Origin: Bacteroidota bacterium
GTDB taxonomy: Bacteria; Bacteroidota; Ignavibacteria; Kryptoniales; JAKASW01
Assembly: GCA_021825585.1 (NCBI GenBank)
Contig: JAKAGT010000003.1
Coordinates: forward strand, 1-64,000
Length of the DNA stretch: 64,000 bases
Reading direction: 5' to 3'
The position numbers and the translations under genes are program-made. Position 1 is the first letter of the stretch. The number at the start of each line of letters is the position of its first letter. The notes beneath the pieces were generated by a model. The model did no database searches, was not told the origin of the DNA, and saw only the letters and a program-made list of their open reading frames with translations. Below are positions 43,562-48,207 of this stretch, in pieces.

Positions 43562-43567
43562 CTATTG

Positions 43568-44611
43568 ATGAAATTACTCGCAATCGAAACGTCGTGCGAT
43601 GAATGCTCGGCCGCATTAATGGAGGACGAAGATCTTAAATCCATCGTGATCTCCTCCCAGCTTGTCCATAGTGAGTATGGAGGCGTGGTGCCGGAGCTTG
43701 CCTCGCGTGCACACATGGAATTGATCGTACCGGTAATCGAGAAGGCGCTAGGTAAATCCGGATTCGTAAAAGAGGGAATAGACGGGGTCGCGGTAACGTA
43801 CGGTCCCGGTCTCGCGGGTTCGTTGATTGTCGGATTGAGCTTTGCCAAAGCATTCGCTTCTTCGCTCGGGATTCCCGTAGTCGGAGTGAATCACATGGAA
43901 GGGCATCTCTATTCGGCTTTCCTTGAAAAAGAGAAGCCGGATTTTCCATTCATAGCGCTGATCGTCAGCGGTGGCCATACCATGCTGGTCCATGTGAAGG
44001 AGCCTTTCTCGCACGAACTGCTGGGGCAAACTCGCGACGATGCTGCGGGCGAGGCATTCGACAAGGTTGCCAAACTCCTGGGGCTCGGATACCCGGGCGG
44101 ACCGGTCATAGACAAGATGGCGAGAGAGGGGAACCCCGATGCATTTCGATTCCCGCGCGCCTTCATGAACGGGGATTCATTCGAGTTCAGCTTCTCGGGC
44201 ATAAAGACAAGCGTTCTCTATCTTCTGCGCGAACTCAAATACACTTCACCGGACAAGGATGAGAAGCTTGTCCGCGATATCTGCGCGTCTTTTCAGCGGG
44301 CAGTAATCGATGTCCTTGTGGAGAAGACTGTCCGCGCCGCGGAGAAATTCTCGGCTCGCTCCATTGCGGTTGCTGGAGGAGTTGCCGCGAACAGGGAACT
44401 CCGGAACTCGCTGCAGGAGCGCGCGTGTTTGGTCAACGCAAAAGCGTATTTTCCGAGATCCCTTTATTGCACCGACAACGCGGCAATGATCGGCATTGCT
44501 GCCTACTTCAAGTACAGAAAATTCGGGATGGTCTCGGACCTTACGTTGAAGCCCGTTCCGAATCTTCCATTTGTGCCTGAGATCTACCAACCTTCGGCAG
44601 AGAGCCTATAG
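43568..44611 (+). CDS. tsaD: tRNA N6-threonylcarbamoyladenosine transferase TsaD
   Basis: A 347-residue member of the universal Kae1/TsaD family that transfers the threonylcarbamoyl group to A37 of ANN-decoding tRNAs. Hallmarks: 'LAIETSCDECSAAL' at the N-terminus (usually D-E-T), 'VTYGPGLAGSLIVGL', the metal site 'NHMEGHLYSAF' (~108-118), 'LIVSGGHTMLVHV' and the late ATP-site motif 'VAGGVAANRELR' with 'FPRSLYCTDNAAMIGIAAY'. It is directly followed, one base later, by trpA, so the two are probably co-transcribed. Confidence 0.95.
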   Translation: MKLLAIETSCDECSAALMEDEDLKSIVISSQLVHSEYGGVVPELASRAHMELIVPVIEKALGKSGFVKEGIDGVAVTYGPGLAGSLIVGLSFAKAFASSLGIPVVGVNHMEGHLYSAFLEKEKPDFPFIALIVSGGHTMLVHVKEPFSHELLGQTRDDAAGEAFDKVAKLLGLGYPGGPVIDKMAREGNPDAFRFPRAFMNGDSFEFSFSGIKTSVLYLLRELKYTSPDKDEKLVRDICASFQRAVIDVLVEKTVRAAEKFSARSIAVAGGVAANRELRNSLQERACLVNAKAYFPRSLYCTDNAAMIGIAAYFKYRKFGMVSDLTLKPVPNLPFVPEIYQPSAESL

Positions 44612-44612
44612 A

Positions 44613-45416
44613 TTGAATAGAATTCGTTTGCTGTTAAACAGCGCCGCGAAGGGTCACGGCAAAAGGAAATTCCTGAGTATTTATGTGATGCCCGGTTTTC
44701 CGAGGCCAAATTCGACGTTGGACGTACTGAAATCTGCTGAAGCTGCCGGTGCCGATTTTGTCGAGCTCGGCATTCCGTTCAGCGACCCACTCGCTGACGG
44801 TCCTGTAATCCAGCGGGCCTCACAGACCGCTATCGAAAACGGCGTTACGCCCAGTAGTGTCCTCGAACTTGTGAAGAAATTCCGCGCCGGCTCTCAGCTT
44901 CCCATCATCTTGATGGGATATGTAAACTCCTTCCTGAACGGAATCGGCGCAGATTTTCCTGAGAAACTGCAGGAATCGGGCGTCGACGGAGTGATAATTC
45001 CCGATTTGTCGCTCGAGGAATCAGATTCATTGCGGGAGAAAATCGAGAAGGCCGGACTAAGTCTCGTGCTGCTGATTGCGCCCACGTCGAGTCAGGAGAG
45101 GATAAAGAGGATCAACGGTGCGACGAGCGATTTTATTTATTGCGTATCCGTAACGGGTGTTACGGGGGCACGGAAGAATCTCGTTAACAGCGAGGTGACC
45201 GATTTTCTTGGCCGGGTAAGGTCGCTCTCGGCTAAGCCGTTTGTCGTCGGGTTCGGAATATCGACCCCCGAGACGGCAAGAGAGATTTCGCGGTATTCCG
45301 ACGGGGTGGTAGTCGGTTCCGCGCTGCTGCAGTGTATTTCCGGGGCTCCCGAGGGAGAGGAAGGTCAAAGCGCGTTTGAGTTTCTGAAAAATCTCCGAAC
45401 GGCGATCGACGGATGA
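44613..45416 (+). CDS. trpA: Tryptophan synthase alpha chain
   Basis: 267 residues starting at TTG 44613, one base after tsaD. TrpA cleaves indole-3-glycerol phosphate to indole and glyceraldehyde 3-phosphate. Catalytic Glu51 and Asp62 are in 'VELGIPFSDPLADGPVIQRA'; later 'VDGVIIPDLSLEE', 'SVTGVTGARKNL' (phosphate loop) and 'VGFGISTPETAREIS' complete the TIM barrel. The usual YITAGDP is replaced by 'YVMPGFP'. It is not beside trpB or other trp genes; instead it precedes a chorismate mutase domain (4-bp overlap), an aromatic-pathway pairing. Confidence 0.93.
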   Translation: MNRIRLLLNSAAKGHGKRKFLSIYVMPGFPRPNSTLDVLKSAEAAGADFVELGIPFSDPLADGPVIQRASQTAIENGVTPSSVLELVKKFRAGSQLPIILMGYVNSFLNGIGADFPEKLQESGVDGVIIPDLSLEESDSLREKIEKAGLSLVLLIAPTSSQERIKRINGATSDFIYCVSVTGVTGARKNLVNSEVTDFLGRVRSLSAKPFVVGFGISTPETAREISRYSDGVVVGSALLQCISGAPEGEEGQSAFEFLKNLRTAIDG

Positions 45417-46762
45417 AGAACATGAAATCGTTGAGGAAGAAGATCGACCGCGCCGACAAGCGGATCGTGAAACTCCTCAACAAACGTGCGGCCTATGCCG
45501 ATGAAATAGGGAAGATAAAGGAAAAGCTGGGGCTGGAGATATATTCTCCTGAGAGAGAAAAACAGGTAATCGACAATGTTTGTAAGGCGAATCCAGGTCC
45601 GCTGAACGACGAGGCAGTCAGGAGAGTATATGAAAGAATCATCGACGAATCACGCAGGCTAGAAAGGGAAAGCGCTGAGGAGAGGAGAGTCTCCATGCGA
45701 CCAGGTGAACTCTGGAAGGCAATTAAGCGAGGATCACCGCAAATCAACAGTGTCGATCTGCGACAGAAAAAGAATCTTGTACTGCTGGCAGCGAGTGCTC
45801 TGGTGGCTTTCATGGTATTCCTCTTCGTGGTGTTTATCACGCCGTACCACGAAGCGCATGGAAGAGGGATCGTAGTAACCATAGAGCACGGGGCGTCTGC
45901 TGAAGAAGTGTTTACCCAGCTGGCGCGCGACAATCTCATTACGAACAAGCTCTTGTTCAAACTGGCGGCGAGAATCCTTTCTCTGGACCATAAGATTAAA
46001 GCGGGAAAATATGTCTTCGCAGGCCATTTTTCAGATGACGACGTTCTGAATGTCATCTCGTCCGGAAAGAGCAATCTGATCGTCACGGTGACTGTCCCCG
46101 AAGGTTTCACCGTCAGACAAATCGCGTCGGTGTATCATCGTGAGTTAGGTGTCGACTCCCTCAGGTTTGTTCGGGAAGCGCTCGGGGATTCCATGGCTAC
46201 CATATTGAATATTCCTTCGAAGAACCTGGAAGGATATTTGTTTCCACAGACCTACGATTTTTACTATGGTACACCTTCAAGTGAAATAATAACAAGGATG
46301 GTGGAGCAGTTTAAGTCGTTTTTCAATGATTCGCTTCGTTCACGGGCGGTAGAGACAGGATATTCGGTGTCGCAGATAATGAAGATAGCGTCTATAGTCG
46401 AAGCCGAGGCGAAGGTGGACTCCGAGAGGGCTCTGATTGCGAGTGTCTATTACAATCGGTTGAGGAGGGGGATGCCTCTGGAAGCCGATCCGACGATTGA
46501 ATACGCCATGGGCGAACACGCGAGGGTATACTATAAGGACCTGCAGATCGATTCTCCATATAATACTTACCGCAGGGTGGGACTTCCTCCGACTCCGATA
46601 TGCAATCCTGGTGCGAAGTCTATTCTTGCGGCATTGTATCCGGACACGACGAAGTATCTCTTTTTCGTAGCGACTGGCACCGGCGGACACAGGTTCAGCG
46701 ATACTTATCGCGAGCATCTTCGGGCGGTGAAAGCCTACCGAAGAGCCATGATGAGAGAGTGA
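45413..46762 (+). CDS. Chorismate mutase (AroQ) fused to MltG endolytic transglycosylase
   Basis: One uninterrupted 449-codon frame. Residues ~5-90 are a complete AroQ chorismate mutase: Arg8, Arg25, Lys36, Arg48 and Glu49 correspond to E. coli Arg11, Arg28, Lys39, Arg51 and Glu52, and Glu84 sits at the Gln88 position. A transmembrane helix follows (~119-141), then the MltG/YceG domain with 'GYLFPQTYDFYYGTPSSEII', catalytic Glu in 'ASIVEAEAK' (~328-336), 'ADPTIEYAMG' and 'SPYNTYRRVGLPPTPI'. MltG cuts nascent peptidoglycan. A purine-rich Shine-Dalgarno-like GGAGAGGAGAG precedes an internal ATG at 45695, so MltG may also be made alone. A recent fusion by loss of a stop, or a sequencing indel, should be excluded. 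Confidence 0.88.
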   Translation: MKNMKSLRKKIDRADKRIVKLLNKRAAYADEIGKIKEKLGLEIYSPEREKQVIDNVCKANPGPLNDEAVRRVYERIIDESRRLERESAEERRVSMRPGELWKAIKRGSPQINSVDLRQKKNLVLLAASALVAFMVFLFVVFITPYHEAHGRGIVVTIEHGASAEEVFTQLARDNLITNKLLFKLAARILSLDHKIKAGKYVFAGHFSDDDVLNVISSGKSNLIVTVTVPEGFTVRQIASVYHRELGVDSLRFVREALGDSMATILNIPSKNLEGYLFPQTYDFYYGTPSSEIITRMVEQFKSFFNDSLRSRAVETGYSVSQIMKIASIVEAEAKVDSERALIASVYYNRLRRGMPLEADPTIEYAMGEHARVYYKDLQIDSPYNTYRRVGLPPTPICNPGAKSILAALYPDTTKYLFFVATGTGGHRFSDTYREHLRAVKAYRRAMMRE

Positions 46763-48207
46763 AGTCCCTCGTGCTACCGGCGCTGCTTAATCTCAGGCTC
46801 AAGCAAACCGTCAGGGGTGAGGGATTCCGCGGCCTACTGAAATTCCTTGCACCCGATTTACTAGTCGGCTTCTTTCTCGCTTTGACTGCCGAAGGTGTAA
46901 GCATCTTGCTGTTCGCGGACAGGGTTGCAAGTGTGGCATTCGGGGTCGCTCTGTTTACGTTGATTGCGGAAACAAGAAAGTTGTTCTTCAACGGCGGCGA
47001 TATGGAACGCTTCTATTTTGTCCAGCCGACCCTCGCGTTCAGACTTTCCTCGGCCTCCGCGATCTTCCTCTTGGACCTGATGGTGACCTTCTCTGTATTT
47101 CTTCCCGTTATACTTTTCTCCGGCGCCGGACTGTTGAATCCCCTGATAATGGCACAGGCTTTTCTGTCAGCGTCCTGCCTCTCGGTTTCGTTATATGTCC
47201 TTATAGTGTTCCTGGTCTCATTTCTGTCCGAGAAGATGTTGAATCCTGCCTTAACAGGGATTCAGCTTCTGACTGCGCTGGTCCTTCTGGCGCTGTTCCA
47301 ATTGTCGACGGGTCTCGATATCCGGTTGAGTTCAGGCGGGGTATTGTATGCCTCCCTTGTGACTTTGCTTGCGATGTCTCTTGTCTTTGTGTCGTATCCT
47401 GCCGGCGAGGAACTCAGTAAGAAACTGAACCGTAACAGGTCGGGAAGCCGTTTTGATCTCCTGCGTATTTTAGATCGAGTCAGGACTTTCGCGATGATAC
47501 GGAGCTCCGAGGAGAAGGCGGGCTTCATGTTGTTTCTGTCGAGCATCACTCGCAATCCCTCATTCAGGCTTTCGACGATCGGGATCGCGGCGACGCCGGT
47601 TATGGTCGCGGTCTACTGGTCCATGCAGGGTGCCCGGATCATGACGTTCCGGCTGTTCCCCGGTTTTGTAAATTCCGATCTCGTGGCGCCGATGGCGTCG
47701 TTGGTCGTCTCAGCCGTCCTTGTTCACTACTTCCTTTCTCAGAACGTTCTGAGCTCCGTCGATCACGAAGCGAAGTGGCTTGTTGAGACGGCCGGGAATG
47801 TTAACGCCGGCAGGTTCGTGCTGGGCGTCCGGAAGTCGATGCTCCTGGCCGTTCATTTACCCATGACGGCCTTTGTTTACTTTGTCCTGATTTTCGAAAA
47901 CCCGCCGCTTAATGCCGCAGTCGCGGCGGTCACTTTCTACCTGCTGAGTCATGTTGCGGCCAGCTGGTTTTCGGTGATGCAGAAACACCTTCCTTTTTCG
48001 CTTCCGTTTACGAGATTGGGAGCAATTGAGGCCGTAAATCTCGTATTCATGCTGGCATATTCTCTCCTCGTATCCGTGGCTCTCTTCTTTTCTTTCGGCC
48101 AGCCGGAAAAACTTTTGACGGTGAATATTTTAGCATTTATCTTAGTAGGTATTCTGGAGACTTTTTCAACCAGGCTAGTAAACAGAAGAGTGAGACTCAG
48201 TGTCTGA
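46759..48207 (+). CDS. Polytopic membrane protein, ABC-2 permease-like
   Basis: 482 residues from GTG 46759, overlapping the MltG stop by 3 bases (GTGA). There are about ten to twelve hydrophobic segments with a charged central loop (~210-260). The pattern resembles ABC-2-type permeases or exporter components, but no signature is recognised and no ATPase gene is adjacent. Position between mltG and ubiX suggests an operon without a clear functional link. Function not assigned. Confidence 0.7.
   Translation: MKSLVLPALLNLRLKQTVRGEGFRGLLKFLAPDLLVGFFLALTAEGVSILLFADRVASVAFGVALFTLIAETRKLFFNGGDMERFYFVQPTLAFRLSSASAIFLLDLMVTFSVFLPVILFSGAGLLNPLIMAQAFLSASCLSVSLYVLIVFLVSFLSEKMLNPALTGIQLLTALVLLALFQLSTGLDIRLSSGGVLYASLVTLLAMSLVFVSYPAGEELSKKLNRNRSGSRFDLLRILDRVRTFAMIRSSEEKAGFMLFLSSITRNPSFRLSTIGIAATPVMVAVYWSMQGARIMTFRLFPGFVNSDLVAPMASLVVSAVLVHYFLSQNVLSSVDHEAKWLVETAGNVNAGRFVLGVRKSMLLAVHLPMTAFVYFVLIFENPPLNAAVAAVTFYLLSHVAASWFSVMQKHLPFSLPFTRLGAIEAVNLVFMLAYSLLVSVALFFSFGQPEKLLTVNILAFILVGILETFSTRLVNRRVRLSV

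Follow-up and report, generated by a model that had tools for sequence, protein, structure and literature searches.

The window, by which we mean the whole 64,000-nucleotide stretch of DNA analysed, holds a reading frame in which a chorismate mutase (CM) runs directly into the cell-wall enzyme MltG. Is this frame a genuine gene, what would its protein do, and what brought its two parts together? In this study, the frame was read in the window and compared with its relatives. It is single and without interruption over 449 codons (45413-46762, + strand), and the encoded parts follow in the order AroQ CM (residues 7-84), flexible linker (about 94-117), transmembrane (TM) helix (117-142) and MltG (155-440). 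The gene and its parts are as follows.

45413..46762, + strand: CM-MltG fusion gene, 449 amino acids, TGA stop, ATGA overlap with the stop of trpA
45431..45664, + strand: AroQ-type chorismate mutase domain (CM_2, PF01817), residues 7-84, from Pfam, alignment and predicted fold
45665..45760, + strand: C-terminal tail of the CM and flexible linker, residues 85-116, from dN/dS and the fold model
45761..45838, + strand: single transmembrane helix, residues 117-142, from the fold model and hydrophobicity
45875..46732, + strand: MltG/YceG endolytic transglycosylase domain with the catalytic position Glu332, from Pfam and alignment

The first-pass annotation had recognised an AroQ and an MltG domain in this frame, and both identities were borne out by profile matches above the cut-offs and by structure matches of the predicted fold. 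CM_2 matched residues 7-84 with an E-value of 1.6e-25 and 89.5 bits (cut-off 27), and the NCBIfam model TIGR01807 (CM_P2) matched with 70.1 bits (cut-off 69.55). YceG (PF02618) matched residues 155-440 with an E-value of 3.3e-88 and 296 bits (cut-off 32.4), and the MltG equivalog TIGR00247 with 272 bits (cut-off 103.4). AlphaFold2 was run on the 25 fused orthologues and gave a mean pLDDT of 80.5 and a pTM of 0.55, with the relative placement of the domains uninformative. The model has the three-helix AroQ fold (helices 2-39, 46-58 and 66-94). In Foldseek, its CM part matched 2d8d and 2d8e with a TM-score (target) of about 0.9, the rmsd to 2d8e being 1.0 over 83 columns; 5gmu and 1ecm were further CM matches, and the MltG part matched the MltG structures 4iiw, 2r1f and 8yq7.

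In the alignments, the core catalytic residues are retained in both parts of the frame. R8, R25, K36, R48, E49 and S80 correspond to R11, R28, K39, R51, E52 and S84 of EcCM, all six being identical. The earlier claim that all key catalytic residues are present holds for these six, but D48 of EcCM aligns with Ser45 and Q88 with Glu84; in the CM of family f22, the position of Q88 is Gln. E332 aligns with the catalytic E218 of E. coli MltG, whose E218Q mutant has served as a catalytically inactive control (PMC8135044), and it is invariant in the 25 fused proteins. A separate observation concerns names. In E. coli, mltG comes after pabC, the aminodeoxychorismate lyase gene (NC_000913.3, 1153300-1155134, L121), and the E. 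coli MltG structure 2r1f bears the title 'predicted aminodeoxychorismate lyase', which was probably carried over from this neighbour. Chorismate chemistry should not be read into MltG itself, since the real lyase gene in E. coli is pabC, beside mltG.

We then examined whether the frame could be an artefact of assembly or sequencing, or the result of readthrough with the CM domain dead. Full-length homologues without a stop are encoded in seven congeners at 65-88% identity, so the frame is due neither to chance nor to an assembly error. The fusion had been proposed for a search in related genomes, and it was found in two families of the order and in a third family of the class. In total, at least 25 sampled species, all within a group of uncultured bacteria, are fused: eight in the own genus (f1), seven in the sister family f2 and at least ten in the distant family f22. 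Sampling covered the class and the phylum, and the species counts are lower bounds. Stops between the two domains do occur in some relatives, a point in favour of an artefact or readthrough. Such stops, which the first-pass annotation had regarded as decisive against the fusion, were found in four congeners, but there they separate genuine split genes, beside eight fused congeners, and the fusion stands. The dN/dS values of the CM domain (0.03-0.10) and of the MltG domain (0.05-0.10) indicate that purifying selection acts on both. With 25 fused species, this selection, the catalytic residues kept and the fused CM as the only one in the genome, an artefact or a dead CM is next to impossible; the artefact reading is ruled out by the occurrence of the fusion in the 25 species. 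Judged by these sequences, the CM-MltG fusion is real and not an assembly error, and the earlier claim of an in-frame joining is upheld by the uninterrupted frame, the Pfam and NCBIfam matches and the stop-free homologues.

Profile searches were also used to ask whether the fused genomes hold other copies of either enzyme. Each of the 25 has one YceG match, which is the fusion gene. The fused CM is the only CM_2 match in 24 of the 25 (14/15 in the order and 10/10 in f22). The remaining fused genome, G017, has a second CM_2 match at C3:19224-19451 (- strand) in a frame of 363 codons, possibly a DAHP synthase-CM or similar. In the genome of the window, a profile search found no AroH-type CM (CM_1 match), and a search of the genome found no second CM or MltG. 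Prephenate dehydratase (PDT, 307 codons) and prephenate dehydrogenase (PDH_N, 392 codons) are encoded at other loci of this genome. On this gene content, the cell plausibly relies on the fused CM for making phenylalanine and tyrosine; if both are made by the usual route, the fused CM must work. The fusion unites in a single polypeptide two housekeeping activities that are unrelated and predicted to lie on opposite sides of the membrane, and this polypeptide is the only source found for both, which for the AroQ-type CM applies to 24 of the 25 genomes.

The TM helix (117-142) is predicted by AlphaFold2 to lie N-terminal to MltG, and its segment is hydrophobic in all 25 fused proteins; its orientation is taken from knowledge of the MltG family. 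The earlier proposal that the cytoplasmic N-terminus of MltG carries the CM agrees with this predicted single helix, which would place CM inside and MltG outside the membrane. Our main reading, to which we give a probability of about 85%, is that a genuine bifunctional membrane protein arose from fused neighbours of the gene row tsaD-(trpA)-aroQ-mltG. In this proposal, aroQ and mltG, adjacent in the conserved row, would have fused into one frame. The AroQ domain would remain in the cytoplasm and provide the chorismate mutase activity of the cell, the linker and the single TM helix would cross to the periplasm, and the MltG domain there would cut nascent peptidoglycan. Two MltG units would be brought together by dimerisation of AroQ. 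Production of the long protein, activity of both domains, the topology and this pairing are all presumed from the sequence features.

Since the first-pass annotation had suggested dual products from an internal start, the region between CM and the membrane helix was scanned for in-frame ATG, GTG and TTG codons. The internal start is the following feature.

45677..45697, + strand: Shine-Dalgarno (SD)-like GAGGAGAGGAGAG with the in-frame ATG 45695 (Met95), from the sequence and the alignment of relatives

The ATG and its strong SD-like stretch are present as had been described, with a duplex energy of -8.4 kcal/mol. A shorter MltG made from ATG 45695 beside the full-length protein would fit this stretch, which occurs in the window genome and in its nearest relative, G006, and also the split congeners, which begin mltG at an ATG close to the CM stop. 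However, of the 15 fused species in the order, only these two keep Met95, and the other 13 lack it. The SD-like purine run consists of codons of an EERR motif that is conserved in fused and split congeners. In G013, G015 and G019 of f2, no in-frame start precedes the TM helix and only a TTG inside it is present, and no in-frame start codon was found in the scanned stretch of G299 and G156 of f22; the simplest reading for these species is that all MltG is made as the fusion. Within f22, four fused species (G259, G256, G265 and G250) retain a Met at the position where unfused relatives start mltG, and the other six do not, a pattern that a dispensable start codon would produce. The internal start as a general feature is ruled out by the relatives without Met95 or without any in-frame start. 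These results suggest that a short MltG form is possible in the window species but not indicated by conservation, and we consider dual products doubtful, although this genome, which keeps the possible start, might make more than the long form.

We next turned to the origin of the fusion. Two genes lie directly upstream.

43565..44611, + strand: tsaD, conserved as the upstream neighbour at almost every locus examined in the class
44571..45416, + strand: trpA (tryptophan synthase alpha), the upstream neighbour in the order and in several families

The row tsaD-(trpA)-aroQ-mltG is conserved, with aroQ and mltG normally separate neighbours, and so the fusion joined genes that were already adjacent. 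Downstream, a frame of 482 amino acids (46759-48207, + strand) overlaps the fusion stop; it has many hydrophobic stretches and no Pfam match, is conserved in the genus and is followed by a ubiX-like flavoprotein gene. Eight of the 12 typable f1 species are fused and four are split into two genes that differ in frame and overlap or almost do so; G008 was left untyped, its locus being interrupted by a contig end. All seven f2 species are fused. The ten or more fused species of f22 belong to six genera, and in other members of the family the two genes are adjacent or non-adjacent; in the unfused G128, the CM ends at an in-frame stop 27 bases ahead of the mltG ATG. Elsewhere, aroQ and mltG are neighbours separated by a stop, both in several further families of the class and in families belonging to other classes, and among the matches listed for the sampled phylum, none outside f1, f2 and f22 is full-length and stop-free. 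In family f6 (L023-L027, L077), CM and MltG share one frame, interrupted by a single stop (TAG or TAA) that is directly followed by a start codon in several species, and are one base change from fusion.

A recent fusion had also been suggested, which its presence in two families of the order and recurrence in a third do not support. From this distribution, it occurred at least twice. In the gene tree, the split f1 species are not set apart from the fused ones, and a single origin, with one clade uniting all fused species of the order, was rejected (AU p 1.75e-05). For f1, one fusion followed by two fissions would require fewer changes than repeated fusions, given that f2 is wholly fused. The CM proteins of the split f1 species have long tails resembling the linker, which would fit fission after fusion, and some congeners have probably split again. 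As four congeners have two genes, whether reverted or never fused, the fused state is not indispensable. With repeated fusion over a conserved row, and fission in some lineages, these genes offer a natural experiment on whether fusion comes from function or only from adjacency.

A functional coupling, in which a membrane-tethered CM or an AroQ-dimerised MltG would be a selected coordination of aromatic and wall synthesis, could account for a fusion that arose at least twice and persists across genera, and the AroQ of E. coli forms an intertwined dimer (PMC10520331). However, gene adjacency by itself explains the recurrence, the fused species form no single clade, and tethering gave no catalytic benefit in exported CM-dehydratase fusions (PMC10520331). 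The tail and linker are the fastest-changing part of the protein (dN/dS 0.17-0.32 where dS is unsaturated), and the linker (94-117) is of low confidence or disordered in the AlphaFold2 prediction. The speed at which the linker changes, its probable flexibility and the existence of split relatives speak against a tight mechanical link. We therefore regard coupling as unlikely. A selected device that holds the only CM at the membrane, pairs MltG through the AroQ dimer and links aromatic flux to peptidoglycan strand length is improbable. Most likely, the fusion was driven by synteny and tolerated through gene adjacency and the cytoplasmic N-terminus of MltG, rather than being a regulatory link.

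We found no description of a CM-MltG fusion in the open-access literature, and the architecture is provisionally novel. Its MltG domain is that of known MltG/YceG proteins (E. coli MltG; Listeria Lmo1499, PDB 4iiw), with the same catalytic Glu and conserved C-terminal motifs and, by prediction, a single N-terminal TM helix as well. In E. coli MltG, the N-terminus ahead of this helix is short, whereas the fusion has an enzyme domain of 84 residues there. MltG of S. pneumoniae likewise carries an additional cytoplasmic domain, described as of unknown function (PMC8135044), and that of the fusion is a recognisable CM. The bifunctional AroQ enzymes (E. coli PheA and TyrA; DAHP synthase-CM) are likewise two-domain proteins with an N-terminal CM. 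Known AroQ fusions unite steps of one pathway (PMC10520331), and the partners in these enzymes are cytoplasmic, in contrast to the membrane-anchored wall enzyme here. Exported CM-cyclohexadienyl dehydratase fusions are also rare CM fusions beyond the classical list (PMC10520331). They contain an AroQ-gamma CM with a partner of the same pathway, and their genomes also encode an intracellular AroQ-alpha CM-prephenate dehydratase (PMC10520331). In CM-MltG, by contrast, the CM is predicted to be cytoplasmic and is the only one found in the genome.
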